Below the pieces are notes generated by a model, which saw nothing but the letters and a program-made list of their open reading frames with translations, did no database searches and was not told where the DNA came from. This document shows positions 13,901 through 38,026 of a DNA stretch of 64,000 bases, piece after piece; the first letter of the stretch is position 1; the number at the start of each line of letters is the position of its first letter. The position numbers and the translations under genes are program-made. This DNA comes from Melioribacteraceae bacterium (GTDB lineage: Bacteria; Bacteroidota; Ignavibacteria; Ignavibacteriales; Melioribacteraceae). The stretch is taken from assembly GCA_016342755.1 (NCBI GenBank), contig JAEINS010000015.1, positions 1-64,000 of the forward strand, read 5' to 3'.

Positions 13901-14194
13901 CTATATTATATATTTAAGGAGGCTATCAATAACTCTGTTAAGCATAGTAAGTGTTCAAAAATTTATTTAGAGATTGAGACCAATGGAAGTGAGCTGGTTA
14001 TGAAACTTGTTGATGACGGACATGGTATTGAAGAAGTAAATATACTTTATGGTAATGGAATTGAAAATATGAAAAGGCGGGCACAGAGTATTGGCGGAAC
14101 ATTATCATGGCATTCAACTGTTGGCGAGGGAACATCAATTCTATTTAAAGGCAAATTGAACGCATGGAGTTTAAAGAATATCCTAAGTATGTAG
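10982..14194 (+). CDS. Sensor histidine kinase with two-component propeller and Y_Y_Y domain
   Basis: A 1070-residue inner-membrane sensor. After a signal peptide (about 1-22) come about 14 propeller repeats of the form xxLWIGTxxGGLNRF (residues about 35-720, two seven-bladed propellers), then a Y_Y_Y domain (about 725-820), one transmembrane segment (about 829-852) and a HisKA_3/HATPase kinase. The phospho-acceptor is H871 in ADLHDN, and the ATP site shows NNSVKH, DDGHGIE and GNGIENM. The overall design is that of Bacteroidota hybrid sensors, but there is no fused receiver or AraC domain. Output must go through separate regulators, most simply the two NarL-type genes just downstream (48 bases to the first). 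Confidence 0.92.
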   Translation: MRKIFLTLILFFLGASCLFSNSTSVKDYRFKHLTLNDGLSQSTISAIYQDNKGYIWFGTADGLNRYDGYNFKIYYNDISDTTTISENSVRAIFEDEENNIWLGTLSGVLNKFNRKEGTFEHIDLRKATPRIENEDIDLFNYPIIYSRGKNETITCIKKDNNNLFVGTLGNGLYIYNTVTKSIKHILSEPNKDKTLSSNKVTSLEFDKENYLWIGTLGGGLNRLNYVSDNEIIIERINPLSDRKNTRESESITCLFVDKANYLWYGTFGDGLNSLNLNKDKPSEKKINTNRVFKDSNRFLLSNNNVTTITEDQEGCLWIGTFGGGVSRFNKETNNYTSYVNNPSDPSSIIDNDVISLFVDKTGILWVGTHLGKGVSVLDKNTVKFDLIKKETFSKKGLNDNIVWGVTEDDNYIWIATYKGGLNRYDKKTGEYKYYQNNQADPWSISDNHVRSLLLDDYGNLWVGTYSGGLNCLDIKTDRFYKHVHNGDDSTSISGNQILSMYIDDNSTFWLAVYKGGLNRFEFKKDIHKGKINFRNYTHKPEDSVSISDDRVYCLFECDEGDVWVGTLGGGFNYFNKEEEKFTSFRHSKTDQNSLSNDQVMSILEDSYETVWIGTFGGGLNKFNHKTHEMTRFIKNGFHCNSIYSIQEDSSKNLWMGTDIGLVQFNLDTEKIVYYDHKDGIQDLEFSGGASLKSKDGKMFFGGINGLNYFYPGKINENKNIPSVQITDIKIFNESIKGEKKEIELSYDQNFFSFEYAALDFTNPAENKYAYYLEGYEHEWQYSNSPHRFAFYKNLAPGYYTFRVKGSNNDGLWNNADASVKVTILTPFWRTWWFITLSVIVILGLIGLLVSKRIKAFFDIERLKVKLAADLHDNIGAGLTEISILSNLIAVELGEESKGVISKLTNIGDTSRQLIDSMSDIVWVVNPKRDSLHDLIIRLKDSFSDFLSLMDVSFKTNSLENFDNLKLPMEYRQNLYYIFKEAINNSVKHSKCSKIYLEIETNGSELVMKLVDDGHGIEEVNILYGNGIENMKRRAQSIGGTLSWHSTVGEGTSILFKGKLNAWSLKNILSM

Positions 14195-14242: not shown

Positions 14243-14881
14243 ATGATTAATGTTGTAATTGTAGAGGATAATAATACTATCCGTAACGGTTTAGCGGCTT
14301 TAATAAATGGAACAAACGAATATAATTGTGTAAGCAGTTATTGTGATTGCGAATCATTTCTGGCAGAAATAAATAAGTTTAGAATTGATGTAGTACTTAT
14401 GGATATTGGACTTCCCGGTATTAGTGGAATAGAAGGTGTTAAAGAAGCTAAAAAAATAGTACCCGATCTTAACGTTTTAATGTTAACTGTTTATGAAGAA
14501 CGCAACGTTATCTTCGAAGCATTATGTGCCGGAGCAACTGGTTATTTAGTTAAAAATACTCCGCCGGCCCGTTTATTAGAAGCCATTAAAGATGCTCATG
14601 ATGGCGGCGCGCCAATGAGTTCCCATATTGCCAGAAAAGTTATAACTGTATTCCAAAATAATCCGGAAGCTAAAAATGATAGTCTGCCGCACAATTTATC
14701 GGACAGAGAATTAGATGTTTTAAATCTTTTGGCAGAAGGAAATAATTACCGGGAAATTGCTGATAAATTATTTATTAGTATTGATACAGTGAGGCATCAC
14801 ATAAGGAACATATATAAAAAACTTCATGTTCATTCCCAATCAGAAGCTGTTGCAAAAGCTATTAAAAAGGGCATTATCTAG
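14243..14881 (+). CDS. NarL/FixJ-type response regulator 1
   Basis: A 212-residue regulator with an N-terminal receiver (residues about 1-120; phospho-acceptor D54 in LMDIGLPG; acidic pair E8/D9; Lys in LVKNTPP) and a C-terminal LuxR-type helix-turn-helix (about 148-212, LSDRELDVLNLLAEG ... ISIDTVRHHIRNIYKKL). HisKA_3 kinases normally pair with this class, so the kinase just upstream is the likely partner. It starts 48 bases after the kinase stop and is probably in the same transcript. It is very similar to the next gene, which points to a local duplication. Confidence 0.92.
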   Translation: MINVVIVEDNNTIRNGLAALINGTNEYNCVSSYCDCESFLAEINKFRIDVVLMDIGLPGISGIEGVKEAKKIVPDLNVLMLTVYEERNVIFEALCAGATGYLVKNTPPARLLEAIKDAHDGGAPMSSHIARKVITVFQNNPEAKNDSLPHNLSDRELDVLNLLAEGNNYREIADKLFISIDTVRHHIRNIYKKLHVHSQSEAVAKAIKKGII

Positions 14882-14893
14882 ATATTACTACAC

Positions 14894-14975
14894 AACCATG
14901 CTTTCTAATCGGTTTTATATGCAAAAACCACATTGTTGTGCGGTTGATTCATCTCCATCCTTTAACTTAATTGTT
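14894..14975 (+). promoter_or_regulatory. Shared operator/promoter element, copy A
   Basis: AACCACAT at 14926-14933, then four bases, then GTGCGGTTGAT from 14938. This copy is close to palindromic: AACCACA on one side, AACCGCACA on the other strand. The TTG at 14944-14946 is followed after about 20 bases by a TA-rich box (TTAATTGT, 14967-14974). A further AACCATGC half-site is at 14894-14901. It sits between the two regulator genes and would drive the second one separately. Confidence 0.5.
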
Positions 14976-15007
14976 ATATCCAATAAATAACGTCTGTACA
15001 GTTTATA

Positions 15008-15649
15008 ATGATAAATGTTGCCATTGTTGAGGATAATATCACAATTAGGGAAGGACTTGCTGTTTTAATCGGGGGGACAGCAAATTACCAATGTATTGGT
15101 GCCTTCTCTAATTGTGAATCTTTTATTTCAAAATTAGGCAAACTTAATGTAGATGTAATTTTATTAGATATACAATTACCTGGTATTAGCGGTATAAAGG
15201 GGATAAAATATATCAGAAATATTGTTCCTGATGTAAATATAATTATGCTTACAGTTTATGAAGATCGTTCAAAAGTGTTTGAAGCACTTTGTGCCGGAGC
15301 TTGCGGATATTTACTAAAAAGTACGCCGCCTCAAAAAATACTGGACTCTATTGAAGAAGCTAATTCCGGCGGATCGCCAATGAGTTCCAATATTGCTAGA
15401 AAAGTCATTTCATTATTTAGTAAAGAGTATTCAAGTTTAAGTAAAAACATTCCGGATAAACTTTTAAAAAGAGAGACAGCAATTTTAACACTATTAAGCG
15501 AAGGAAATAACTATAAAGAAATTGCAGAAAGACTTTCACTTAGTATCGATACAATTCGCCATTATATAAGACTAATCTATAAAAAACTTCATGTTCATAC
15601 ACAGTCTGCTGCTGTGGCAAAGGCATTAAAAAAAGGGTTAATATCTTAA
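15008..15649 (+). CDS. NarL/FixJ-type response regulator 2
   Basis: A 213-residue paralogue of the preceding regulator, with the same layout: receiver with D54 (LLDIQLPG) and LuxR-type DNA-binding domain (about 150-213, EGNNYKEIAERLSLSIDTIRHYIRLIYKKLHVH). The recognition helix SIDTIRHYIRLIYKKL differs from SIDTVRHHIRNIYKKL in the first regulator at only a few positions, so both probably read similar sites. Unlike the first copy it has its own upstream region of 126 bases with a copy of the shared element (14926), so it may be separately expressed or feedback controlled. Confidence 0.92.
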   Translation: MINVAIVEDNITIREGLAVLIGGTANYQCIGAFSNCESFISKLGKLNVDVILLDIQLPGISGIKGIKYIRNIVPDVNIIMLTVYEDRSKVFEALCAGACGYLLKSTPPQKILDSIEEANSGGSPMSSNIARKVISLFSKEYSSLSKNIPDKLLKRETAILTLLSEGNNYKEIAERLSLSIDTIRHYIRLIYKKLHVHTQSAAVAKALKKGLIS

Positions 15650-16001
15650 CCAATCAATTTTATTATTTAAAAGTTATGAAAAAAATATTTTGCGGTTCAT
15701 GCCCAAGATTAGGAATTGTTATGTATTGAAAATTGAATTCAGCAATGTTAAATTTTTCCTCTTGCTGGCAGTGCTTCAATAGCTGCAGTATCTTTTTCAC
15801 CTGCAAACAGAATCCCATTTTACTTTTGATTTTTGCTGCCAGTGTTTCATTTTCTCCAAACCATTCTCCAAGATGTTTAAACAATTATCATATTTATCAA
15901 CCAATTATTAAGAACACCTAAGACGATTAATTAGCACAAAAGTTATAAGAAAGCGCATGAATATGTTGAATGTTGCATGGTTAACGAGCATTTTTCTTCT
16001 A
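15650..16001. other. Intergenic region, possible gene remnant
   Basis: No convincing gene. A 73-codon minus-strand frame (15663-15884, TTG start) has no ribosome site. The other minus-strand frames read protein-like for 20-30 codons before a stop, for example ILFAGEKDTAAIEALPARG. Near-repeats GCTGGCAGTGCTTCA and GCTGCCAGTGTTTCA lie about 70 bases apart on the plus strand. This may be a decayed gene, but chance cannot be excluded. Confidence 0.3.
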
Positions 16002-16050
16002 AACCACATGTCCGTGCTGTTGTTAAAAAAGTAACATCTAGCTAATTATG
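15975..16050 (+). promoter_or_regulatory. Shared operator/promoter element, copy B
   Basis: AACCACAT at 16002-16009, four bases, then GTGCTGTTGTT from 16014. TTG at 16020-16022 is followed after exactly 20 bases by TAATTATG (16043-16050), one mismatch from the Bacteroidota -7 box TAnnTTTG. An inverted half-site GCATGGTT is at 15975-15982. It lies about 160 bases upstream of the TonB receptor start, implying a long leader. Confidence 0.55.
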
Positions 16051-16207
16051 TATTAAAAATAAAAGCCTAAATAAATAAGGGAAGGAGAAGTTTTTTTAAT
16101 TAGCAGTTTTAACAAAAGTTTAAGGAAAATAAAAGGGAGGATTTAAGCATTAAGATAAAAGTATAATTCCCAAATTAAACTTTGTGTAAAAAATACAAGG
16201 AGAAAAT

Positions 16208-19183
16208 ATGAAGAAAAAGATTACTAGCGTTTTACTCTTTTTACTAATGCCGGCCATTTTGTTTGCCGGAACAGTTGGTAAAATAAGAGGAACCGTTACA
16301 GATGGGGAAGGTAATCCTTTAATCAGTGCCAATATTTTAGTTGTCGGTACATCATTTGGCGCTGCAACAGATGTAAATGGTGAATTTTTAATAACTAACC
16401 TGGAAGCTGGAATATACGAGGTAAAAGCTTCTTATGTTGGTTTTCAATCGGTAACAATTTCAAACATACGTGTTAATGCCGATTTAACAACTGCTCTCAG
16501 TTTTGAACTTCCCGAAGAGGGTTATTCAACTGATGAGATTATGGTTATTGCTACACAACCGCTTGTTAATAAAAGCTCAACTAATGCAAATAGAATTACA
16601 ACTGGTGAAGATATTGAAGCACTTCCGGTGAGGGGAATGGATGATATTGTTTCACTTACACCAGGTGTAGTTTTGCAGGATAATACTGTTTTTATTCGCG
16701 GCGGTAGAAAAGATGAAGTTGGTTACTATTTAGAAGGAGCATCAATATCAGATCCCGTTGCCGGCGGCCGGGGGGTTACCATTCCACAGGATGCTATTGA
16801 AGAAATTCAAGTTCAGGCTGGTGGTTATAATGCCGAGTATGGTGGTGCTAATGCTGGTATCATCTATACTCAAATGAAATCCGGTCCTTCTAAATGGGGA
16901 GTAACAACTGAATATATTACAGATAATATTACTTTTAAAGGACAGGACGATCACTTTGGAAGCGATAAACAACTTGGCGCATACTGGTATGGTTACGATG
17001 AATTTACCACAACCTTAGGCGGTCCTATATTTAAAAATAATATTAGATTTTTTGGTACGTTTAATTACAGCTATCAAAGAGACAAAAATCCGCAGGCATA
17101 TCCCGGAATGAATTTGGGAATTATTAGTGATCCAACAACCCAGGATTCTATTGATTTTACATATCCGGCAGGAATACTATATAAAAACTCTCTAAGAGGA
17201 TATAGCGGTACAGCTACTCTGTCTTTAGATTTTAATCCGTTTATTTTTAAAATAATTGGTACCTATACAAGTTCTACAACATTCAATCCGTTTAGTACTT
17301 CGCGTGTAGCAGGTAACATAGCTAATATGCTTAATCTTGCCAGGGTTGAAAAACAAGACGCTGAAAATGGTGCTTTAAATTTGAAATTTACTCACCTTTT
17401 AAATGCCACAACTTTCTATGAATTGAATGTTGGTTACTCATTTAACAACCAGGAACAGTATGATCCATATTTAAAAGATGACTTTTTGAATTATGGAGAT
17501 AGTCTTGCGAATGCTAAAGTTGGATGGGATCAGTTTAGTGACAGATATGAACAGCCAACAAGGTTAAATATTTTTAACTGGAGTTTTCATGCACCAGGAA
17601 CTGTATCAGCCGGTTATTATAAATATAACAGAGAAAAACTAAATATCTCAGGTGCACTTTCAACTGAGTTTGGTAAAGAACATTCCATAAAAATTGGCGG
17701 CGAGCTGCAATTGTTCAAGATAAGAAACTACGGCCTCAATAACGAAAACGCGATTGGAATTGCGGGTATACTTGAAGCTGATAGGAACGGATCTAATTTA
17801 GGTGTTGAAGAAATACTTAGAAGACAGGGTGTTAACAATTACGGTTACGATGTATTAGGCAATGAATTTGACGGTGATGGATACGAAGCTCCTAAAACAC
17901 CCGTATTTGCCGCGTTTTATATTCAGGACAAAATTGAGTACAAAGATTTAGTCTTGAATCTTGGTCTTAGATATGATTACATAGATATTGATAATCAGCA
18001 AATGACCGATGCTACAAGACCGGAATTTTCAATCAACTATAATAACGGTAATATAATTGATGAAGGCTGGGAAGATGTTCCTGCATTCGGTGCTGTTAGC
18101 CCTCGTTTAGGTTTTTCATTTGCGGTTACCGATGAAACTAAATTCCATGCGCAATATGGCAAGTTTGTTCAGCAGACTAGATTGAGAGATGCTTATACCG
18201 GACTCAATTCCACTTCGAGAAATTTAAGAGGCGGATTGTTTATTCTTGCTCCTGTTGGTTATAATGTAAGACCTACTCGGACAACTCAATACGAAATGGG
18301 ATTTACACAGCAGATAAGTGATTTTGCATCATTCGATATAACCGGTTTTTATAAAGATATTCAAGATCAGATAGTTTTTAAACAGCAGAGAACAAATGTT
18401 GAATCTCAATTTGCCGCGTATACTATTCTTGAAAATGGCGATTTTGCAACAACAAAGGGACTCGAAATTTCTTTTAATATGAGAAGAACACAGCGGTTTC
18501 TTGTAAATGCTTCTCTATCATTTCAAGATGCACAGGGAACAGGTTCATATCCTAATTCGAATGCCGGTTTAGTTGGTGCACCGTTAGACGGAGTAACTAT
18601 ATTTGAACCGCAATACATTTCACCGCTCGAATATAATAGATCCTTAAGTGGCAATATAAGTGTCGATTACAGATTTGGTGAAAATGAAGGTTCTTCGTTT
18701 TTTAATGAGTTTGGAATTTCAACACTTTTAACCTTTAACAGCGGACATCCATTTACATTAGGAATTGGCGGTGATGACTTAGAAGGAAATCCTCGTGACA
18801 GACAGCCTATAGAAGCTTTGGGTTCTTCAACAACTCCGTCAAACTTCCAGGTTAATTTAAGAATTGATAAAACCTTTAGTTTGTTCGATAAGGTAAAAGC
18901 AAATGTCTACGTATACGTAATCAATCTATTTGATAAAAGAAATATTGAAAATGTATTCTTAAGAACCGGCTCATCTGTTGATGATGGTTATTTAAGTGAT
19001 CCTGATCTTGGAGGTTTATTGGCCGAAACAAATGGAGCGGATTACGTGGCATTATACAATGCTATAAACCATGATTATAATGAGCAGTGGCAAAATGCAA
19101 TGACCGGAGGAAATATACAGGTGCAGCCAAGAATGTATGGTCCTCCAAGACAGATTCGTTTAGGTGTAAAATTAGAATATTAA
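16208..19183 (+). CDS. TonB-dependent outer-membrane receptor with carboxypeptidase-like domain
   Basis: A 991-residue outer-membrane transporter. It has a signal peptide (about 1-20, ILFAG), a CarboxypepD_reg-like beta domain (about 24-105, GKIRGTVTDGEGNPLISANILV), a plug domain (about 120-225, containing ALPVRGMDDIVSLTPGV and FIRGGRKDEVGYYLEG) and a long beta-barrel ending in an aromatic-rich strand. There is no SusD partner next to it; the following gene is a T9SS cargo protein instead, 41 bases on. A good ribosome site (AAGGAG) precedes ATG 16208. The transported or secreted substrate is unknown. Such receptor/cargo/PorV triplets suggest a secretion-linked or surface-assembly role rather than simple nutrient uptake. 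Confidence 0.9.
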   Translation: MKKKITSVLLFLLMPAILFAGTVGKIRGTVTDGEGNPLISANILVVGTSFGAATDVNGEFLITNLEAGIYEVKASYVGFQSVTISNIRVNADLTTALSFELPEEGYSTDEIMVIATQPLVNKSSTNANRITTGEDIEALPVRGMDDIVSLTPGVVLQDNTVFIRGGRKDEVGYYLEGASISDPVAGGRGVTIPQDAIEEIQVQAGGYNAEYGGANAGIIYTQMKSGPSKWGVTTEYITDNITFKGQDDHFGSDKQLGAYWYGYDEFTTTLGGPIFKNNIRFFGTFNYSYQRDKNPQAYPGMNLGIISDPTTQDSIDFTYPAGILYKNSLRGYSGTATLSLDFNPFIFKIIGTYTSSTTFNPFSTSRVAGNIANMLNLARVEKQDAENGALNLKFTHLLNATTFYELNVGYSFNNQEQYDPYLKDDFLNYGDSLANAKVGWDQFSDRYEQPTRLNIFNWSFHAPGTVSAGYYKYNREKLNISGALSTEFGKEHSIKIGGELQLFKIRNYGLNNENAIGIAGILEADRNGSNLGVEEILRRQGVNNYGYDVLGNEFDGDGYEAPKTPVFAAFYIQDKIEYKDLVLNLGLRYDYIDIDNQQMTDATRPEFSINYNNGNIIDEGWEDVPAFGAVSPRLGFSFAVTDETKFHAQYGKFVQQTRLRDAYTGLNSTSRNLRGGLFILAPVGYNVRPTRTTQYEMGFTQQISDFASFDITGFYKDIQDQIVFKQQRTNVESQFAAYTILENGDFATTKGLEISFNMRRTQRFLVNASLSFQDAQGTGSYPNSNAGLVGAPLDGVTIFEPQYISPLEYNRSLSGNISVDYRFGENEGSSFFNEFGISTLLTFNSGHPFTLGIGGDDLEGNPRDRQPIEALGSSTTPSNFQVNLRIDKTFSLFDKVKANVYVYVINLFDKRNIENVFLRTGSSVDDGYLSDPDLGGLLAETNGADYVALYNAINHDYNEQWQNAMTGGNIQVQPRMYGPPRQIRLGVKLEY

Positions 19184-19224
19184 GAAATCGGCTCTATTGT
19201 TAAAATAGAATAGGAGTTTAATAT

Positions 19225-22200
19225 ATGAAATCAAATAAAATGTTCTCCTTACTTTTATTATTTGCCATTGTCTTATCAGCTTCGATAACGGCGGAAAATA
19301 AAGAAGGGAATGAAAGAAATAAAAAGCTGAGTAAACCGAATGGTACTCCGGTGCGTGCGTACTTAAATATAAACAACATATCCACAGTATTTAAGAACGA
19401 TGGAATCTCTGATATAGATGTAGCTGAAGCGAACTGGGGATTCTTCTTTCCCAAAGGCAGCGGAAAAGGTGCTGTATTTGAGTCTGGACTTCTTTGGGGA
19501 TTAAAGCTGGATGGTAAAGAGCAAGTTCAAGTTGGCGGATCTGCTTATAGTTCCGGATTGCAGCCTGGAAAAATTATTACCCCGGGAGTTGCGGAAGATC
19601 CGGCTTTACCAAAGAATCGTATTTATCGTGTAAGACCAGACGTATTTCCCGGTGCTCCTGATATAGATCTTGGAATGGAGGCAAATGACGAAGGGAAATC
19701 GGAAAGCATGGTAAGAGAACAATATGAAACGGACTGGTCAGAATGGCCGGCTGATGATGGTGCTCCATATAAAGATATTGATGCAAACGGGAGTTACGAT
19801 CCTAACGTAGATATTCCCGGTGTAGTTGGTGCAGATCAAACAATATGGTTTGTAGCAAATGATTTAGATGAAGGTAATACAAGAAACCTTTATGGAACAG
19901 ATCCGGTTGGAATGGAAATGCAGTTTACTGCCTGGGCTTATGCACAGCAGGGAGCTTTAGGAAATATGTTTTTTAGGAAATATAAAATTATTAATAAAAG
20001 TGAAGACGATTTCCATGATGTATATGTTTCAATGTGGTCTGATGTTGATCTGGGTACTTCTGCAAACGACTTTGCAGGCTGTGATACAACATTAAGTTTA
20101 GGATTCTGTTATAATGCCACGGCAAATGATCCTGTTTATAGTCCGCTGCCTCCGCCCGCGGTTGGGTTCGACTTTTTTCAGGGACCAATAGTTGATGGGA
20201 ACGCAAATGATATGGCTATATTCAATGGTAAATTTGTACCGGGCAAAAAAAACTTACCTATGACATCATATTATTATTTTGCCAGAAATAGAACCGATAT
20301 TGCTGATCCTACTACTGCGAATCCTCAAGGGGCAACACAGTTTTATAATTTCTTCCAAGGTAAAATAGGTTTAACCGGTGAGTATTTTGTTGATTACAAT
20401 ACTGGTCTGCCAACAACATTTGCGCTCGCTGGTGATCCGCTAACTAGAACTGGCTGGGTTGATGGTCAGCAAGTTCCTGGTGGCGATAGAAGAATAGGAA
20501 TGGCTTCCGGTCCTTTTGAAATGGCAATTGGTGACACTCAGGAAGTTGTTGTAGCCGAAATATGTGCCGGCGCTATTCCTGGAATGGATAGGTTAAGTGC
20601 TCTTGGTCTATTAAAGTTTTATGATAAACAAGCTCAACTAGCTTATGATAATTTCTTTGATTTGCCTGTTCCTCCTCCGGCACCTGAAGCAAAAACTGTT
20701 GCATTAGATAGAAAAATAATTCTTGACTGGGGATACAATCCTGTTCTTGCTAATGAAATTGAAAAATCAAATTCAAAAGGATACAAATTCCAAGGTTATA
20801 ATATCTATCAATTACCAAGCGCTTCTGCATCATTCTCGGAAGCAAAACGAATTGCTACATTCGATATTGCCGATGGTCTTGGAAAAATTGAAGACTTTTT
20901 CTTTGATGCTTCTACAGGAGTTGTTGCAAGAGGTGTTCAGCAATTTGGTAATGATACCGGTATAAAAAGATATATGGATATTAGTACAGATGAAATTAAA
21001 GGCGGTACTCCTCTAATAAATGGAATTAGATATTACTTTGCTGTAACCTCTTATAGCTACAACGAAGATCCGGATGCCGTTCCAAACAATTTGGAAAATC
21101 CGTTATCAATATTAACAGTTGTGCCTAATAGTAAAAATCCCGGTGAAATTACCAGTGAAGTATATGATGAAATGTATGTAATGTACGATGGAACTGCGGA
21201 TGCCAGTGTAACTGTAAAAGTAATTGATCCTTTTGCAACAACTGGTCACGAATATGAAATATTCTTTGATCAGCAGCATTACTATTTAGATAGAGATGGC
21301 GAGTATAAAACTACAAGCTATCCTGATTCAATTGGTAAAGTTCTTGGAAAAGATGTTAGTCCGGCTTATTTGTCCGGAGTATCTTTTATCGCTTCAAGTA
21401 CTGAATGTGATCTAATTTTTACTGTACAGGATTTAGAATTATCACCCGATTATTCCTACTCAGATGGAGTGAAATTAGTATTTCCATCATCAATAAATAT
21501 TATTAGTGCGGAGAATAGCGGTAATGATGGTGATATTGAACCAACAATTGATAGAGGTGAAAATTCAGTGACCTGGGGTTCTCCTGATACAACACAGGAT
21601 GGACCATTTCATGGTGGTGAATTACTTAGTGTTAAAGTTAGAACTCATGTACTTCCTTTGGATGTTCAATATACAATCTGGGACGATGGATGGGGTATGT
21701 TATCAGGTCCCGATTACGGAATTACTGGTGAATATAAACATGCCGAAGGTGTTGTAAGCGTTTCGGAAGAAGCAAATTATTTTCATACAGAGAATCACTG
21801 GAATGTACGGGATCTGAATACAAGTGAAGTAGTATCGGACGATCATAACGTATATGGCGGTGTTAATGTGTTTACCGGAGAAGATTTAGGAATTGATGCC
21901 GATCCGATTGTAGACGGACTGCAAATTTCTTTTGCGGGCAGCTTTGATGCTCCGTTTGATTTTGCCGCTCTATTGTTAAATGGAAGTGATGATGTTGGTG
22001 ACTACAATATTGATAGTTACGGAGCAAATGACTGGTCTACTTTTGGCCCGACAAATTCTGCAAGAGCAATTCATGCGGCCGGTGACGGTAATAATGAATT
22101 GATAGTTTTACAAAAAGATATAGAATTAAGATTTACCGGTGAATATGAAGATGAACCTGAAATAATTATAAATGGTACCGATACATTAGCCGTTTGGAAA

Positions 22201-23025
22201 ATTAAAGAAGGTACTGGTTCAGTTGCTACTATCTATCATGCCCGTGGAATGAATACTATTTCGGAACATCCTATGAATCCTAATCCGGGTAGTACCGATG
22301 CCTTTACAGTACGCATTCCGTTTGAGGTTTGGAATGTTGATGATGACAGACAAATAAATCTTGTTATGGTTGATAGGCTTCAGGATCCTACTGCTTTTGG
22401 CGGCGAAGAAAATGTTACAAGAATTGATTTTTATGGTTTCAATCCAACCGGAAGAATGTATTGCTTTATTCATGATACAGAATATAGCGAGAATGTTATT
22501 CCTATAGTAATGGATTTTGATGCCGGTGAGTTTATTCCAAGTGATGTTACTAAAGATTTAACATGGAATATTGTTTTCTGGGAAACACCATGGGTTAAAG
22601 GTGATGTTCTAAACTTTAGATATAATAATCCATTATTGGTAGGAGTTGATAAATTCAAATTTTCATCAGTTGCTCCAAGATTTTCTAAAACTGATGCAAA
22701 AAAAGATGTAAAAAAAATAAATGTGTTTCCAAATCCGTATTATGCAGTTAATTCCGAAGAGTTAAATAAATACAACCGTTTTGTAACCTTTACGCATTTA
22801 CCTGATCAAGCTAAGATTAGAATATTTGATTTAGCCGGAACTCATGTGAGAACTATAGAAAAAGATAGTGATTCACAATTTGAAAGATGGGATCTATCTA
22901 ATCAGAGTGGATTGCCGGTTGCAAGTGGAATGTATATAGCTTACATCGATATGCCAGAAATAGGAGAAACTAAAATTCTCAAACTTGGAATTATTCAAGA
23001 ACAGCAAATTCTGGACAGATATTAA
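19225..23025 (+). CDS. Large T9SS-exported protein with FlgD-like/type A sorting domain
   Basis: A 1266-residue exported protein with signal peptide (about 1-22). The C-terminal ~90 residues (INVFPNPYYA ... IRIFDLAGTHVRTIE ... PVASGMYIAYID) form a FlgD-like/T9SS type A sorting domain, so the protein is predicted to cross the outer membrane by type IX secretion. The body shows no family I recognise; it is acidic and beta-rich, with calcium-site-like stretches such as DIDANGSYDPNVD near residue 185 and a cohesin-like region around 690-820. AGGAG precedes ATG 19225. It lies between a TonB receptor and a PorV-like barrel in one operon. A structural or adhesive surface protein is a reasonable guess only. 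Confidence 0.85.
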   Translation: MKSNKMFSLLLLFAIVLSASITAENKEGNERNKKLSKPNGTPVRAYLNINNISTVFKNDGISDIDVAEANWGFFFPKGSGKGAVFESGLLWGLKLDGKEQVQVGGSAYSSGLQPGKIITPGVAEDPALPKNRIYRVRPDVFPGAPDIDLGMEANDEGKSESMVREQYETDWSEWPADDGAPYKDIDANGSYDPNVDIPGVVGADQTIWFVANDLDEGNTRNLYGTDPVGMEMQFTAWAYAQQGALGNMFFRKYKIINKSEDDFHDVYVSMWSDVDLGTSANDFAGCDTTLSLGFCYNATANDPVYSPLPPPAVGFDFFQGPIVDGNANDMAIFNGKFVPGKKNLPMTSYYYFARNRTDIADPTTANPQGATQFYNFFQGKIGLTGEYFVDYNTGLPTTFALAGDPLTRTGWVDGQQVPGGDRRIGMASGPFEMAIGDTQEVVVAEICAGAIPGMDRLSALGLLKFYDKQAQLAYDNFFDLPVPPPAPEAKTVALDRKIILDWGYNPVLANEIEKSNSKGYKFQGYNIYQLPSASASFSEAKRIATFDIADGLGKIEDFFFDASTGVVARGVQQFGNDTGIKRYMDISTDEIKGGTPLINGIRYYFAVTSYSYNEDPDAVPNNLENPLSILTVVPNSKNPGEITSEVYDEMYVMYDGTADASVTVKVIDPFATTGHEYEIFFDQQHYYLDRDGEYKTTSYPDSIGKVLGKDVSPAYLSGVSFIASSTECDLIFTVQDLELSPDYSYSDGVKLVFPSSINIISAENSGNDGDIEPTIDRGENSVTWGSPDTTQDGPFHGGELLSVKVRTHVLPLDVQYTIWDDGWGMLSGPDYGITGEYKHAEGVVSVSEEANYFHTENHWNVRDLNTSEVVSDDHNVYGGVNVFTGEDLGIDADPIVDGLQISFAGSFDAPFDFAALLLNGSDDVGDYNIDSYGANDWSTFGPTNSARAIHAAGDGNNELIVLQKDIELRFTGEYEDEPEIIINGTDTLAVWKIKEGTGSVATIYHARGMNTISEHPMNPNPGSTDAFTVRIPFEVWNVDDDRQINLVMVDRLQDPTAFGGEENVTRIDFYGFNPTGRMYCFIHDTEYSENVIPIVMDFDAGEFIPSDVTKDLTWNIVFWETPWVKGDVLNFRYNNPLLVGVDKFKFSSVAPRFSKTDAKKDVKKINVFPNPYYAVNSEELNKYNRFVTFTHLPDQAKIRIFDLAGTHVRTIEKDSDSQFERWDLSNQSGLPVASGMYIAYIDMPEIGETKILKLGIIQEQQILDRY

Positions 23026-23047
23026 TTAATAACTTAACGGAGTGAAA

Positions 23048-24079
23048 ATGAAACATAGATATATATTAAAATTAGGTTTGTTCCTCCTTATAGTAAGTCT
23101 CAGTGAGCTATTTGCTGGAGGCGGAAATAGAATTGGAACTAGCGGAGCTTCACAGCTTCTAATTCCGGTTGGTGCTCGTGGCATTGCATTGGGCGGAGCT
23201 AATTTAGCAACCACAAGAGGTGTTGATGCTATCTTCTGGAATCCGGCTGGTATTGCAAAAACTCAGCATGGAGTTGATGTAACCTTTTCGCACATGAACC
23301 ACATTGCTGATATAGGCATTGAGTATGGTGCAATTGCTGCTAGGATTAATTCTCTGGGAGTTTTCTCCTTTCATGTAAAGTCAGTTGATATGGGCGATAT
23401 TCCAGTTACAACAACTGCCGAGGTAGATGGAACCGGTAGAACATATGCCCCTCAACTATTAACTGCGGGAATTTCTTTTTCTCGACAATTAACAGATGCA
23501 ATAGCTGTTGGTATAACCGGAAATTTTATTTCCGAAACTATACAGGATGTAAGTGCTACAGGTGTTGCGTTTAATGTTGGTGTTATATACGATAATCCCG
23601 GAGGAGTTGAAGGATTAAGCTTTGGTATAGCTATGAAAAACCTTGGTCCGCAAATGCGATTTGATGGTTCTGGTTTATTAGTAACTGCGGATGTTGACGA
23701 TTATAATAGACCTCCGCAATTATATCAAGCAAAAGCTGCTTCTTTTGAATTACCTTCAACTTTTGAATTTGGATTATCCTATTCAAGAGAAATTGACGAT
23801 CAGAACAGCTTTTTAGCAACTGGATCATTTAAGCATAATAATTTCCAAGCTGATGAATATTTGGGCGGACTTGAATATAACTATAATCAGATTTTCTTTT
23901 TGAGAGGTGGATATACTTCTGCTGCTAATATTGAAAGTGACGATTATTTATATGGATTTACCGGAGGATTTGGTATTAGTTATCTGGTAGGTGCAGTAAC
24001 AATTAGAGCAGATTATGCTTTTAGAGAAGTAGAATATTTTGATGCAAATCATGTTTTTGCATTAAGTTTGGGATTCTAA
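23048..24079 (+). CDS. PorV/PorQ-family outer-membrane protein
   Basis: A 343-residue barrel protein with signal peptide ending near LFAGGG. The N-terminal motif SGASQLLIPVGARGIALGGANLATTRGVDAIFWNPAGIA (quoted in parts: SGASQLLIPVGARG; ATTRGVDAIFWNPAG) is the hallmark of PorV/PorQ (UPF0164) proteins, related to FadL-type barrels. In T9SS, PorV escorts cargo from the translocon. Its place directly after a T9SS cargo gene (22 bases) suggests a dedicated shuttle. A GTG at 23042 is in frame, but CGGAG at 23038-23042 fits the ATG at 23048 better, so I chose that start. A strong terminator follows. Confidence 0.85.
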   Translation: MKHRYILKLGLFLLIVSLSELFAGGGNRIGTSGASQLLIPVGARGIALGGANLATTRGVDAIFWNPAGIAKTQHGVDVTFSHMNHIADIGIEYGAIAARINSLGVFSFHVKSVDMGDIPVTTTAEVDGTGRTYAPQLLTAGISFSRQLTDAIAVGITGNFISETIQDVSATGVAFNVGVIYDNPGGVEGLSFGIAMKNLGPQMRFDGSGLLVTADVDDYNRPPQLYQAKAASFELPSTFEFGLSYSREIDDQNSFLATGSFKHNNFQADEYLGGLEYNYNQIFFLRGGYTSAANIESDDYLYGFTGGFGISYLVGAVTIRADYAFREVEYFDANHVFALSLGF

Positions 24080-24087
24080 TTTTTCGA

Positions 24088-24120
24088 GCCTCTCACAATC
24101 ATGTGGGAGGCATTTTTATT
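24088..24120 (+). terminator. Intrinsic terminator ending the TonB/cargo/PorV operon
   Basis: GCCTCTCACA (24088-24097) and TGTGGGAGGC (24102-24111) form a 10-base-pair stem with one wobble and a 4-base loop, followed by ATTTTTATT. Confidence 0.85.
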
Positions 24121-24141
24121 TCCAATCAAAGAACATCATTA

Positions 24142-24271
24142 GACCACGCAAAAGTAATTTTGTTTCATACAAACCACATGAATATGTAGTCAACTGTACA
24201 TTTAGCAGTAATAACCACATTAAATTACATGATTGTGCTGTTGTTAAAAGGGTCTTTTTCTCCTTTATTAG
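24142..24271 (+). promoter_or_regulatory. Shared operator/promoter element, copy C, with phased extra half-sites
   Basis: The core is AATTACAT (24223-24230), four bases, GTGCTGTTGTTAAAA from 24235, nearly identical to copy B on the right side. Extra half-sites AACCACAT lie at 24213 and 24172, and a weaker GACCACGC at 24142. Their offsets of 10, 41 and 30 bases are close to whole helical turns. TTG at 24241-24243 is followed after 20 bases by TTTATTAG. The SusC-type gene starts at 24354. Confidence 0.5.
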
Positions 24272-24353
24272 TGATGCAAATATGGAGTAGTTGCACAATT
24301 AGCTTTAATATAAATCAATTTAACTAATTCATATAACAAACTCAGGAGGTGGC

Positions 24354-27182
24354 ATGGATAAATCTTATACCATTGGCTACAAGGCTCTGAAGCTATATTT
24401 ACTGATGATCTTACTTTTAAGCTCAACAGTAATGGCACAATCAACAGGCTCAATTAAGGGTACTGTAAAAGATTCCGGAAACGATGATGTTTTAATCGGA
24501 GCAAATGTTTTTTTACCTGGAGCATCAACTGGTGCTTCAACAGATATTGATGGTGAGTATATAATCAGTAATATTCCAGCTGGTACTCATCAGGTTTTAG
24601 CAAGATTTGTTGGTTACAAACAACAGACAATTGAAGTTGTTGTTTTAGCTGGTAAATCAACACAGTTAGATTTCTTTCTTGATGCTACAGCAGTTCAGTT
24701 AGATGAACTAGTTGTAACTGGTGTTGGTTCTGCTGTTGAGAAAAGAAAATTAACATCAACAGTTTCTACAATTAGTGTGGATGAAATTAAATCTGCTCCC
24801 GTAGAATCTATTGATCATTTACTTCAAGGAAGAGTACCTGGTCTTAGTTCTTTCTCATCTTCAGGTATGCCAGGTACGGCTGGTAGAATAGCTACTAGAG
24901 GTATTAAAAGTGTATCTACATCTTCAACGCCAGTAATATATGTAGATGGTGTTAGAGTGGATAATGGAGCTGCTTTCCGTTTAGCCGATGATACTGGCGG
25001 TGCTGAAACTTCAGCTCTTTCTGACTTAGTAGTTGGAGAGATTGATAGAGTTGAGGTTATTAAAGGTGGTGCTGCATCTACATTATATGGTTCTGAAGCG
25101 GCAAATGGTGTTATACAAATATTCACGAAAAAAGGTGTTCCTGGAAAACCAAAATGGACTTTTGGTGTAACTACTGGTTTTGATGAAGCAGAAGAATATT
25201 TTGTAGTTGAAGATTATACAAAAGACAACTTCTTTCAAAAAGGTGCTTACCAAAAATATTTACTTGGTGTTTCTGGTGGAAATGAACTTTTATCTTATAC
25301 ATTAAATGGAAGTGCTTTCCAAAATGATGGAATAATGGTAAAAAATAATTCTCAATCTAAAACCTATAACTTTAATGCTGGTTTTAGATTGCATTTAGAT
25401 GATACCAAAAACTTAGAAATTTCTACAAGTTATACTAAGAATCAATATAACCGTCCATTGAACAATAATGTTACTAATGCTCCTTTTGGCTCGTTTGAAC
25501 AAGCTGATTATGGTGATCAATATGATTGGAATGATGCAATGCGAGATTCAATTCTTAACAACTATATGTTAAAAGTTGATAACAAAAATGATATTGATCG
25601 TTTCCGTGTTTCAGCTAACTTTGATTATAAACCAATCGAAAACTTCACAAATAAAATTACTCTTGGAATGGATTATAGAAAAAGTGAGGAAAGAAACTTA
25701 ATTCCAAAAGTTGCTGGTGATTTTTATGGAACTAAAGATGGCTCATTATATCGTTCGGATAGAGAGTATTCAACTGTAACAATGGCTTATAATGGTTCGT
25801 ACATCTTACCTAACTTTGGACCAGTTGAACAAACAATTAACTTCGGTTTCCAAGGTTTTAGAATTGATGATAGAGAAACATTCAACCAAGGATTACATTT
25901 TGGTTTACCTGGAACAGATGATTTTGATAATGCTGCTGATATTACATCTGGTGAAAGTAACCAAGAATTATTCAACTACGGATTTTATATTACAGATTTA
26001 ATTGGTCTATATGATAATTTATTTGTTGATCTTGGATTAAGAGTTGATGGTAACTCTACATTTGGTGATGATATAGGTTTACAGTATTATCCAAAAGCTG
26101 GTATAGCTTATAATGTAACTGATGAAGAATATTATCCTGCTTTTTTAAAACCATACATATCAACATTAAAAATTAGAGCTGCATGGGGTATGACAGGAAA
26201 CTTCCCACAGCCTTTTAGAAAAGATAGAAGTTATTTAGCACAACAGTTTTTAGGTCAAACTGCATTAATCCCTTATAACCCAAGAGGAAATGCTGCTGGT
26301 AATCCTGGTAATGATGAACTTGGTCCTGAAAAAACTTCTTCTATTGATATTGGTTTTGACATGGGTCTTTTTAATGATAAGGCCTTAGTAGAATTTAACT
26401 ATTTCCAACAGACTACTGAAGATGCTTTATTCCAGGTTCCTCAGGATCCAACAATAGGATATCCAAGTCAGTTGACAAATGTTGGTGAAATATCAAACAA
26501 AGGTATTGAATTATCAATATTTGCAAAACTATATTCATCAAGAAACTTCTCAGTAGACATGAGAGCATCTATTTCTACTAATGAAAATGAAATCACAAGC
26601 CTTGGCGGATCTTCTCCATTCACATTAATGGGTTATACTTTCTTACCATTAAGAATTGAAGAAGGACATGCTGTTGGTGCATTTAGAATTCAAGTACCAA
26701 ATGGTGATGGAACTAGTGAAGAAATAGTTACTGGATCTCCTACACCAAAACAATTTGGTAATCTATCGTTTAACTTTGATATACTTCAAGATTTAACACT
26801 AAGTGTAATGGCTGAATATGCACTTGGTCATCAAGCAGTTGATCTTAAAAAAGTATTACGTTATTTCAACGGAACCGACGATACAGGCGAAATAGTTCCC
26901 GATGGTTATAACTTTATGAATGCTTCAAGCGTTTGGTTAGAAGATGCTGATTGGGTAAAATTAAGAGAAATTTCTTTATCATATAGATTACCACAATCAA
27001 TTTTTAATGGAGTTTCACTATCAGCAAGCTGTAGAAACGTTGCAGTTCTATATACTGAGATGGAAAACGATCCTGAACTAAACAGTTTCCAATCTACCGG
27101 AGCTCCGGCGGTTGGAGGTTATTTATACTCTGATATTTCTGCTCCAAGGCAATACAGATTAAGCCTAACTGTTAATTTATAA
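24354..27182 (+). CDS. SusC/RagA-type TonB-linked outer-membrane transporter
   Basis: A 942-residue transporter: signal region (about 10-29, TVMAQ), CarboxypepD_reg-like domain (about 32-118, GSIKGTVKDSGNDDVLIGANVFLPG), plug domain (about 125-260, LDELVVTGVG ... IATRGIKSVSTSSTPVIYVDGV ... STLYGSEAANGVI) and beta-barrel. It is paired with a SusD-type lipoprotein 34 bases downstream, so it probably imports oligosaccharides or peptides with that partner. AGGAGGTGGC precedes ATG 24354, a very strong ribosome site. Codon use is notably shifted to GGT, GCT and CAA with few GGC/GCC, unlike the upstream operon, suggesting high expression or a different origin. Confidence 0.92.
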   Translation: MDKSYTIGYKALKLYLLMILLLSSTVMAQSTGSIKGTVKDSGNDDVLIGANVFLPGASTGASTDIDGEYIISNIPAGTHQVLARFVGYKQQTIEVVVLAGKSTQLDFFLDATAVQLDELVVTGVGSAVEKRKLTSTVSTISVDEIKSAPVESIDHLLQGRVPGLSSFSSSGMPGTAGRIATRGIKSVSTSSTPVIYVDGVRVDNGAAFRLADDTGGAETSALSDLVVGEIDRVEVIKGGAASTLYGSEAANGVIQIFTKKGVPGKPKWTFGVTTGFDEAEEYFVVEDYTKDNFFQKGAYQKYLLGVSGGNELLSYTLNGSAFQNDGIMVKNNSQSKTYNFNAGFRLHLDDTKNLEISTSYTKNQYNRPLNNNVTNAPFGSFEQADYGDQYDWNDAMRDSILNNYMLKVDNKNDIDRFRVSANFDYKPIENFTNKITLGMDYRKSEERNLIPKVAGDFYGTKDGSLYRSDREYSTVTMAYNGSYILPNFGPVEQTINFGFQGFRIDDRETFNQGLHFGLPGTDDFDNAADITSGESNQELFNYGFYITDLIGLYDNLFVDLGLRVDGNSTFGDDIGLQYYPKAGIAYNVTDEEYYPAFLKPYISTLKIRAAWGMTGNFPQPFRKDRSYLAQQFLGQTALIPYNPRGNAAGNPGNDELGPEKTSSIDIGFDMGLFNDKALVEFNYFQQTTEDALFQVPQDPTIGYPSQLTNVGEISNKGIELSIFAKLYSSRNFSVDMRASISTNENEITSLGGSSPFTLMGYTFLPLRIEEGHAVGAFRIQVPNGDGTSEEIVTGSPTPKQFGNLSFNFDILQDLTLSVMAEYALGHQAVDLKKVLRYFNGTDDTGEIVPDGYNFMNASSVWLEDADWVKLREISLSYRLPQSIFNGVSLSASCRNVAVLYTEMENDPELNSFQSTGAPAVGGYLYSDISAPRQYRLSLTVNL

Positions 27183-27216
27183 TTTCGTTTTGCATAATAT
27201 TTATTTAGGAGATAAT

Positions 27217-28611
27217 ATGAAAAAATATATTTTAATGCTTTTAATTCCAGTTTTGGGTTTAGTTAGTTGCGATCTTCTTGATCCTTCTGATGTTCACAAC
27301 CCGGCTGTAACGGAAGAAAAGTTATTAGCTGATGCTACAGGCGGTGCCGGTCCATTATTGGCTGGCTTACAATTCAAATATTCTGATGCAATTCTTAGAA
27401 TGGCAATTTATTCTGAGTGTGTTTCTGATAATTATGATAATACATCAACATTTTTGTCTAGTATTTTTGATAAGCCTCATGAAATAATACCAGGTGAACA
27501 ATATCTGGATGATAGACGTGAAATTTATGCAGCTCTGCAATATTTGCGTAATCAATCAGAACTAGGTCTTAATGTAATTCTGCCTCAGGATGGAACCTCT
27601 ACAGATGAACATGAAGCCGAAACACATTTTTATAAAGGAATGGCAATTTTGATGTTGGCAGAAAACTTTGCTGCATTTCCTATAGTTGATCTTGGTGGAT
27701 TAGTAAGAGCTGAAGAAGCATTACCTACAGCAATTAGTGAATTAAAAACATCTTACGATATGGTTGCTGACGTTAAGTGTAAGATTGCTTTAGCTAGAGC
27801 ATACAGATTATTAGGTGATAAAGGAAATGCTAAACTATATGCTGATGAAGCTGTATCAATGACTTTAGACTATGTATTGTTGGCTCAATATGATGTAACT
27901 AATCTTGATAATGATGTGTACGATTTTACTGTATCAAGAACATTACATGATATGCAGCCTTTACCAAGATTAGATTTCTTAGATCCTAAATATGTAGATG
28001 AGGTTTCTCCTGTTCCTACATTGAAGATTGAAGATTCATATTTAGTATTAGCTGAAATTGCAATTGCCAACGGTGATGAAACAGAAGCGAAGACACAACT
28101 GATCAACTGTATCACTTTAGCTAAATCAAGAGAAGTAACTACATTTGATGATGTTGATCCACGTGATGATAGACCTTCTAATCCTGCATTTACAGTTAAG
28201 GCTGATGCAAATGCGCCGGCTGTAAGTGGTTTAATAGCTGATAGAAGTACAACGTTAGAATCTCATGAAATTTCTAATACTAGTTTAACAGAAGAATATG
28301 TTAATGCAGTATCTGGTAAAGAAGACTTATATCATACACTATATTTGTTACGACAAGAAATATTCTTTGCAGAAGGTCGTAGAATGAGTGACTTAGGAAT
28401 TCGTTTACCAGTTAACAGAAGACAAATTGAAACAAGTTCAAGTATTGCTGAAGGTGTGTATGGAACATCAATAATAGTTCCTTCATTTATACCTACAAGT
28501 GATGAAATGGATCAGTTTGCTGAAGTTGACGGTGTTGTAACAATTCTTCATGATATGAACCGTAAAATTGCTCAAAATACAAGTGTGGCTTTCGTAGCAC
28601 CATTTGAATAA
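27217..28611 (+). CDS. SusD/RagB-type surface lipoprotein
   Basis: A 464-residue lipoprotein (LGLVSC lipobox) that would cap the SusC-type barrel and bind substrate at the cell surface. The family features visible are the helical TPR-like N-terminal half (ATGGAGPLLAGLQFKYSDAI; EAETHFYKGMAILMLAENFAAFPIVD; CKIALARAYRLLGDKGNAKLYADEAV) and the C-terminal REIFFAEGRRMSDLGIRLPV segment, equivalent to the usual LWxEGRRxxDLxR. A frame start at 27190 exists, but AGGAG at 27207-27211 precedes ATG 27217 and gives a proper signal peptide, so I use that. It has the same GGT/GCT-rich codon use as its partner. Confidence 0.85.
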   Translation: MKKYILMLLIPVLGLVSCDLLDPSDVHNPAVTEEKLLADATGGAGPLLAGLQFKYSDAILRMAIYSECVSDNYDNTSTFLSSIFDKPHEIIPGEQYLDDRREIYAALQYLRNQSELGLNVILPQDGTSTDEHEAETHFYKGMAILMLAENFAAFPIVDLGGLVRAEEALPTAISELKTSYDMVADVKCKIALARAYRLLGDKGNAKLYADEAVSMTLDYVLLAQYDVTNLDNDVYDFTVSRTLHDMQPLPRLDFLDPKYVDEVSPVPTLKIEDSYLVLAEIAIANGDETEAKTQLINCITLAKSREVTTFDDVDPRDDRPSNPAFTVKADANAPAVSGLIADRSTTLESHEISNTSLTEEYVNAVSGKEDLYHTLYLLRQEIFFAEGRRMSDLGIRLPVNRRQIETSSSIAEGVYGTSIIVPSFIPTSDEMDQFAEVDGVVTILHDMNRKIAQNTSVAFVAPFE

Positions 28612-28620
28612 TAATTTTTA

Positions 28621-28661
28621 TTTATTATACCCGATATTATTTTAATGTCGGGTATAATAAA
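28621..28661 (+). terminator. Hairpin after the SusC/SusD operon
   Basis: Arms 28621-28634 and 28648-28661 are exact 14-base reverse complements with a 13-base loop. The stem is AT-rich at its base and centred on ACCCGA/TCGGGT. It starts 10 bases after the SusD stop. Confidence 0.75.
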
Positions 28662-28724
28662 ACTTTCTCAGCCTGCTACATATATATGTCGATAAAATTC
28701 CCATTATAACTTTCTCTAGTAACA

Positions 28725-28773
28725 AACCACATAAACATGCCATTGATAGAAAATTCATCAAAGATTATATTAT
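28725..28773 (+). promoter_or_regulatory. Shared operator/promoter element, copy E
   Basis: AACCACAT at 28725-28732, four bases, ATGCCATTGAT from 28737 (8 of 11 matches to copy A). TTG at 28743-28745 is followed after exactly 20 bases by TATATTAT (28766-28773). Confidence 0.45.
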
Positions 28774-28779
28774 AAGAGA

Positions 28780-28902
28780 AATTAAAAAAGTTCTTTAAAA
28801 TAAAAATTTACTTTTGAAAATCCTTCTAGCGCCTAGGATAAAAAAGTAACTTTTTCGATGCATACCGCCGACGGTAGCCTATCCGTCGGCATTTTTTTAT
28901 TT
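28780..28902 (+). ncRNA. Candidate small RNA
   Basis: This stretch begins where copy E of the shared element would start transcription and ends in a strong intrinsic terminator. It has no open frame with a ribosome site. It contains two further small inverted repeats: around CTAG-CGC-CTAG (about 28829-28839) and AAAAGT/ACTTTT (about 28845-28857). The exact 5' end is an estimate. The alternative is an attenuated leader of the kinase gene at 29031. Confidence 0.3.
28867..28902 (+). terminator. Strong intrinsic terminator between SusD and the TPR kinase
   Basis: GCCGACGG (28867-28874), 8-base loop, CCGTCGGC (28883-28890), then ATTTTTTTATTT. It is 200 bases past the SusD terminator, so it must serve another transcript. 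Confidence 0.88.

Positions 28903-37846: not shown

Positions 37847-37918
<72 letters not shown>

Positions 37919-37954: not shown

Positions 37955-38026
<72 letters not shown>

Follow-up and report, generated by a model that had tools for sequence, protein, structure and literature searches.

Which regulator controls the four promoters that share one short element in a genome of the Melioribacteraceae? The 64,000-nucleotide stretch analysed here (contig JAEINS010000015.1, positions 1 to 64,000; the window) encodes a sensor kinase and two NarL-family response regulators, RR1 and RR2. A composite element in four of its intergenic regions had been linked, in a reading made from the sequence alone, to a dimeric LuxR-type regulator encoded next door and to a self-controlled regulon for outer-membrane secretion and uptake. 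Is the element an operator, and if so, of which regulator? Or does it belong to another factor, to an RNA structure or to a repeat?

The shared element is AACYRCAT-N4-ATGYRGTT, an imperfect palindrome of 20 bp. It is joined to a promoter of Bacteroidota type at the -33 TTG, and a weaker palindrome is often present 51 bp upstream. The claim of a shared element is correct, and stronger than when first made. The palindrome is very probably the operator of RR1, acting as an activator, for an outer-membrane regulon, because sites are linked to the regulator at the promoters of a small protein family (SmP), recur before orthologs of the window's SusC gene and mostly change with the recognition helix of the regulator.

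Results

The element in the window and in the genome

The pattern AACCACATNNNNRTGCNRTTG is found exactly at 14926 (site A), 16002 (B) and 28725 (D) in the 64-kb window, and the copy at 24223 (C; AATTACAT) departs from it at two positions. As had been claimed, all four copies have a half-site spacing of 12 bases and end in TTG. With up to two mismatches allowed, the window has no fifth copy (mean of 0.12 in 100 shuffles). Near-inverted halves had been noted in copy A; they are there, but not in A alone, since all four copies are imperfect palindromes. The extra half-sites reported before 24223 are also real as additional elements, but consist of a full second palindrome (24172) and a lone half-site (24213).

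The source genome (4.73 Mb, 56 contigs) was covered by pattern searches at up to two mismatches; against the palindrome form, the copy at 24223 has three. A slightly looser pattern, AACCACATNNNNNTGCNRTTG, has exact genome matches only at 14926, 16002 and 28725, and its reversed control has none. With two mismatches allowed, the palindrome form is found at 42 places, against 13 for the reversed control. The sole perfect palindrome is on another contig, at C14:98769, beside rpoD and 5' of an SmP open reading frame (ORF), with a second palindrome 50 bp upstream.

A matrix of the proximal palindrome was trained solely on SmP promoters of other organisms. On the + strand of the window it ranks 14926, 16002, 28725 and 24223 first to fourth (scores in Table 1), followed by 24172 (12.9) and then by 4.6; the best unrelated window position on either strand scores 6.0. 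When 24223 is added to the genome palindrome matches, the five top scores are those of the SmP promoter (27.8) and of A to D (18.3–23.1, best strand), and the next is 16.0. Genome-wide hits at random positions, including inside genes, had been named as the outcome that would refute the reading, which passes this check: the top five palindromes are the four window sites and the SmP promoter. Eleven further matches score 10.3–16.0. Ten were inspected (C52:155687 was left out), and nine of these were rejected as lying inside ORFs of at least 90 aa. The only intergenic one, C34:73358 (L289:1459), is a weak palindrome between divergent genes. Another candidate, C12:87611 (L004), was also discarded, being inside an ORF.

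Promoter geometry

The -7 consensus of Bacteroidota sigma-A promoters is TAnnTTTG (PMC9723704). The best box of this kind is 18–20 bases past the TTG in 15 of 23 foreign SmP promoters. This agrees with a Bacteroidota sigma-A promoter, in which the -7 box stands at a fixed distance from the TTG; the boxes in the window are weaker. A TA-rich box exactly 20 bases past the TTG had been claimed for three of the window copies. This holds for B (16043) and D (28766), but the distance in A is 21 (TAATTG, 14968); the aligned box of C, at 24264, is TTTATTAG.

Second sites are present at 20 of the 34 named SmP promoters, 51 bp away in 17 and 52 bp away in three. The base directly past the proximal site is G, which gives the TTG, in 23/34 and T in 11/34; two of the latter (L155 and L157) are probably distal sites. 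Directly past the distal site, G is found in 2/20. Besides the 50 bp of the source-genome SmP promoter, pairs at 41 bp occur (L116, L131 and L276). When a distal matrix was applied from 125 to 21 bp upstream of the window sites, the sole standout position was 51 bp for B, C and D, and 40 bp for A. The only strong distal site in the window is 24172; for 15951 and 28674, about 1.5 in 10,000 window positions score as high. Behind the SusC operon, just 5' of the distal partner of D, is a 19-nt inverted repeat whose arms are 3 nt apart (28621–28661), which likely marks a transcript end.

Probable operators behind the regulator in relatives

A search with RR2 in 58 genomes (the source included) provided 33 regulator loci and seven other places, of up to 20 kb each. 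The regulator has an HHI helix in 24 of the 33 loci, and 13 of these 24 have an SmP gene behind it. The recognition helix of the operator-bearing regulators is TVRHHIRN (TVRHHIKN in L114). Eight clusters, the FHF group, have TVRFHFRN or TVKFHFRN. At up to two mismatches, an operator is present near the regulator in 20 of 25 HHI clusters, counting the window, and in none of the eight FHF clusters. Operators directly behind the regulator start 5–112 bp past its stop codon (380 bp in L115), and site A, 45 bp past the RR1 stop, is in the same place. RR2 occupies in the window the position behind RR1 that SmP has in relatives, whereas SmP sits beside rpoD. The site is present without an SmP gene behind it in L107, L108 and L123, and in L122 the pair precedes a SusC gene.

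Where no SmP follows the regulator (L107, L108, L123 and L127), the stretch past the operator has no long ORF, contains G5–G6 tracts and specifies a strongly folding RNA. Behind the operator 5' of SusC in L255 there are likewise G5–G6 tracts and no long ORF. Tracts of five or more G are present in 6 of 25 regulator-downstream stretches; Rfam gave no match. Regulator-controlled small RNAs are a possible explanation of these stretches.

SmP, a putative target outside the window

Of 296 genomes sampled from the phylum, 71 have SmP. For the promoters, a profile scan of species genomes was used, from which the best 80 of 271 loci were taken; their titles name Ignavibacteria, Ignavibacteriaceae, Melioribacteraceae and similar, or only 'Bacteroidetes' or 'Chlorobiota bacterium'. 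Two loci with less than 300 bp of upstream DNA were left out and 78 were scored. Where the regulator is directly upstream of SmP, a site lies within 350 bp in 30/30 (27 at up to two mismatches, three at three). Where it is not, a site is present in 5/48. Fisher's exact test gives p 9e-17, a value that is too small since the loci are related.

The site-less SmP is mostly a paralog in a conserved neighbourhood, with a gene downstream that we label DprA-like from its sequence (49 loci, a collection that overlaps the 80-locus sample). Of the three SmP genes in the source genome, one carries the operator and another has the DprA-like neighbour; the third has neither. An SmP gene that does not adjoin the regulator and yet has the operator is present in six genomes (G000, G010, G013, G030, G031 and G114), which were chosen for their several or unlinked SmP copies and are not a random set. 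By these sequence comparisons, the conserved operator target in relatives is SmP.

What kind of protein is SmP? Pfam and NCBIfam give matches only at E 0.016–0.17, far below cut-offs, and the best PDB match by sequence has E 0.035. The AlphaFold model (mean pLDDT 84.7) has helices at 24–32, 38–55, 60–70 and 76–84. Foldseek against the PDB returned 13 matches at E up to 10, none at E up to 0.001, and VIA-align on 22 chains gave a best Z of 4.5. Against viral models the best E was 0.1 at probability 1.00, and the second-ranked match is named 'Homeodomain-like'. A helix-turn-helix reading of SmP is tentative.

Recognition helix and palindrome in the FHF clusters

In six of the eight FHF clusters the genes stand in the same order as in the window (kinase, regulator, second regulator, TonB receptor, cargo-like protein, PorV), in some cases with one additional gene. 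A different palindrome, TACCYAWWTRGGTA, was spotted by eye in FHF intergenic regions. At up to one mismatch it occurs seven times in 149,530 bp of FHF loci and not at all in 510,935 bp of HHI loci, a count made after the fact, in the same regions from which the palindrome was drawn. All seven matches are directly behind regulators, in 4/8 FHF loci, and right arms 51–55 bp apart are present in 9 of 15 regions inspected. In sister clusters with another recognition helix, the same genes are mostly preceded by a different palindrome, although there are exceptions. The change of helix and operator is at best one switch, seen once. The second regulator is degenerate in L130, L132, L133 and L135 (195–206 aa), and its DNA-binding helix has decayed.

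RR1 and RR2

Both regulators have the domains of the NarL/FixJ family in Pfam (Response_reg E 5e-23 and GerE 2.8e-18 in RR1, 3.3e-23 and 2.9e-11 in RR2), and a palindromic operator adjoins targets and regulator, as in that family. In a tree of 43 regulators RR1 and RR2 are grouped together (96/89), with an end branch of 1.3 for RR2 against 0.32 for RR1, and two helix residues have changed in RR2. Judged by tree and alignment, RR2 is a fast-evolving duplicate of RR1. The HHI and FHF regulators fall on opposite sides of one branch (100/98), as groups of 18 and 11 rows whose labels were assigned in part from the helix; 14 rows carry no label.

The proposal that a dimeric LuxR/NarL-type regulator encoded next door binds the element is supported and can be narrowed: of the two regulators, the likely binder is RR1. 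The description of the regulon as self-controlled is borne out in part. Site A precedes RR2, but no operator was noticed in the window before the kinase and RR1 genes.

Putative target genes and neighbouring features

The coordinates are collected in Table 1.

Table 1. Features of the window and the SmP gene of the source genome
Feature	Position	Strand	Basis or remark
Sensor kinase: Reg_prop propeller, Y_Y_Y, HisKA_3, HATPase_c	10982..14194	+	Pfam
RR1, NarL-family response regulator, helix TVRHHIRN, proposed binder	14243..14881	+	Pfam, alignment, tree
Doubtful distal partner of A, 40 bp upstream	14886..14905	+	Distal matrix 2.2; window fraction as good 3.75e-4
Site A, proximal palindrome, 5' of RR2	14926..14945	+	Matrix 23.1; same post-regulator place as in relatives
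Site A promoter	TTG 14944-14946; possible -7 box 14968-14975		-33 TTG
RR2, fast-evolving RR1 duplicate, helix TIRHYIRL	15008..15649	+	Pfam, alignment, tree
Weak distal partner of B, exactly 51 bp upstream	15951..15970	+	Distal matrix 7.3; fraction 1.48e-4
Site B, proximal palindrome, 5' of TonB-receptor/cargo/PorV genes	16002..16021	+	Matrix 18.7
Site B promoter	TTG 16020-16022; box 16043-16050
Putative targets of B as a unit	16208..24079	+
TonB-dependent receptor	16208-19183	+
Large cargo-like protein	19225-23025	+
PorV/PorQ family protein	23042-24079	+
Distal palindrome of C, exactly 51 bp upstream	24172..24191	+	Distal matrix 22.2, highest in window
Lone half-site AACCACAT, one helical turn upstream of C	24213..24220	+
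Site C, proximal palindrome, 5' of SusC	24223..24242	+	Matrix 16.1 (+), 18.8 (-); SusC orthologs also with sites
Site C promoter	TTG 24241-24243; box 24264-24271
Putative targets of C: SusC/RagA family (24354-27182), partner (27190-28611)	24354..28611	+
Weak distal partner of D, exactly 51 bp upstream	28674..28693	+	Distal matrix 7.8; fraction 1.41e-4
Site D, proximal palindrome	28725..28744	+	Matrix 18.3
Site D promoter	TTG 28743-28745; box 28766-28773
Candidate small RNA or attenuated leader from D, ending in terminator-like hairpin 28867-28890	28778..28899	+	Fold z -3.19, terminator
SmP, 87 aa (source genome)	C14:98882-99124 (L143:8865-9128)		Conserved 80-90 aa family; other example L104:8080-8331

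The SusC/RagA assignment has 414.8 bits with TIGR04056 (cut-off 368.25). Its partner had been called SusD; the protein has no SusD match in Pfam or NCBIfam at E up to 0.001; Pfam gives TPR_8 alone, below cut-off, and NCBIfam nothing. Orthologs of the SusC protein (54–60% identity) have sites in three of four other genomes, or 4/5 counting the window. The G031 ortholog has a single perfect site, about 350 bp upstream. A pair spaced at 51 bp, with 1 and 0 mismatches, precedes the ortholog of G033. In G043 there are two pairs, both at 51 bp: the nearer has three mismatches in each site, and the other, 550 bp farther upstream, has 1 and 2. Six distant SusC homologs have no sites at up to two mismatches.

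A transcript from site D would reach the hairpin after about 110 nt. Its product is a candidate small RNA, or an attenuated leader before the TPR kinase gene at 29031. In a DNA search of the 58 genomes it had, besides itself, short partial matches among those listed, the best at E 1.4e-5, which we take for A+T-rich chance. In the window Rfam matched two tRNAs but not this candidate, and in six loci it matched nothing. The tRNA genes are in tandem on the - strand (37847–37918 and 37955–38026, 72.7 bits each).

TonB receptors, PorV and SusC suggest the uptake or surface breakdown of a polymer. The earlier interpretation as an outer-membrane secretion/uptake regulon fits all of the comparative evidence.

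Discussion

Proposed mechanism and alternatives

The following steps are proposed because they are the known behaviour of the NarL family. The propeller-type kinase would phosphorylate RR1 in response to a signal that is likely periplasmic because the kinase carries Reg_prop, Y_Y_Y, HisKA_3 and HATPase_c. RR1 would then dimerise, and its dimers would occupy the 20-bp palindrome. The proximal palindrome includes the -33 TTG of a TTG-N19/20-TAnnTTTG promoter. The weaker palindrome lies 51 bp farther upstream, a distance of about five helical turns, and may hold a second dimer on the same face, perhaps bound cooperatively. Activation by polymerase contact would fit, because the proximal palindrome includes the TTG and the second lies five turns upstream. 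Polymerase could in this way be recruited to RR2 (a target of RR1 rather than the main binder), to the TonB-receptor, cargo and PorV genes, to the SusC genes, to the small RNA or leader that precedes the TPR kinase gene, and to the distant SmP gene.

Could the main binder instead be RR2, or an RR1-RR2 heterodimer, with site A as a strict autoregulatory loop? RR2 is behind site A and is the sister of RR1, but the operator is conserved in relatives that have a single regulator, and that regulator is closest to RR1. With the fast evolution and changed helix of RR2 also against it, this is rather unlikely. We give equally small weight to a regulator that binds and represses, its dimer over the -33 TTG blocking polymerase until the signal removes it. 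The palindrome does include the TTG, and in the available text of PMC4549865 NarL itself both represses and activates. A fixed second site 51 bp upstream would better suit an activator, as would the loss of the TTG in 9–11 promoters in which the palindrome stays.

An unlinked transcription factor that also controls the regulator neighbourhood could account for all these genes at once, and binding by RR1 is something that we infer. Against such a factor, sites track regulator linkage at the SmP genes and mostly change with the recognition helix, which makes it very unlikely. It is extremely improbable that the palindrome acts in RNA, as a terminator or processing hairpin, or is a copy of a repetitive element. 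Sites in relatives are often just past the regulator stop codon, but no T run follows the palindrome, sites are also present before SusC and unlinked SmP genes, the spacing is fixed at 51–52 bp, strong sites are few in the genome, and a different palindrome is in the same place in several FHF clusters.

Several observations weigh against RR1 as the activator acting through this operator. The weaker genome matches are mostly within genes. With the distal matrix, A, B and D have only weak partners, which 59876 and 56067 outscore. Five of 25 HHI clusters (L105, L114, L119, L125 and L129) have no near site at up to two mismatches; each has a site at three mismatches or elsewhere in the genome or locus. 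The SusC ortholog of G003 has no sites. A perfect AACYRCAT palindrome (L136:8286, in G047) is directly behind a regulator with the helix TVRFHVKN (this regulator is 50% identical to RR1, and the palindrome precedes a 638-aa ORF). Finally, L130, of FHF type, has a three-mismatch-like palindrome of intermediate look, CTACACATATGTGTAG.

Beyond the window, these clusters might form an undescribed Ignavibacteria family of self-contained signalling modules, made up of propeller kinase, NarL regulator and a 51-bp tandem operator joined to the -33 box, in which the operator was rewritten with the helix (HHI/AACYRCAT, FHF/TACCYA), geometry and targets were kept, and SmP is a second-tier helix-turn-helix regulator. 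We hold this broader idea as possible but doubtful, and slightly more so than at first because L136 and L130 misfit a simple helix code.

Comparison with known systems

Operators of uncultured lineages can seldom be assigned to regulators from sequence alone. For this group the sequence yields regulator, operator, promoter geometry and targets at the same time, and the sister clade provides a natural experiment on how operators may change along with their regulator. A conserved small family without a Pfam or NCBIfam entry, SmP, has been brought to light, and the outer-membrane uptake and secretion genes of Ignavibacteria gain a testable switch. The kind of mechanism is already known. No description of this operator or regulon was found in the literature searched, which was mostly free of subscription papers.

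In the hybrid two-component systems (HTCS) of Bacteroides polysaccharide loci, sensor, kinase and DNA-binding regulator are in one protein, and the regulator is of the AraC type. The window system resembles them in its Reg_prop and Y_Y_Y sensor and SusC-family target. It differs in that the kinase has no regulator domain among its Pfam matches and the regulators, of NarL type rather than AraC type, are separate genes.

The PorXY-SigP system for control of the type IX secretion system (T9SS) is also a two-component control that touches PorV-family and secretion genes, but according to the available text of PMC4800418 it works through an ECF sigma factor, and RR1 and RR2 score 47.6 and 46.7 bits with the NCBIfam PorX equivalog model, which has a cut-off of 300.

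E. coli NarL, as described in the available text of PMC4549865, is like RR1 a Response_reg and GerE protein with a palindromic dimer site, and the FHF palindrome TACCYAWWTRGGTA resembles the engineered NarL site TACCCCTAAAGGGGTA given there. NarL sites in that text are of the 7-2-7 form, inverted heptamers of TACC...GGTA type with two bases between, whereas the window palindrome contains no such heptamer pair. Unlike the sites of NarL, the window operator is joined to a Bacteroidota -33 box, paired at 51 bp and placed before outer-membrane targets.

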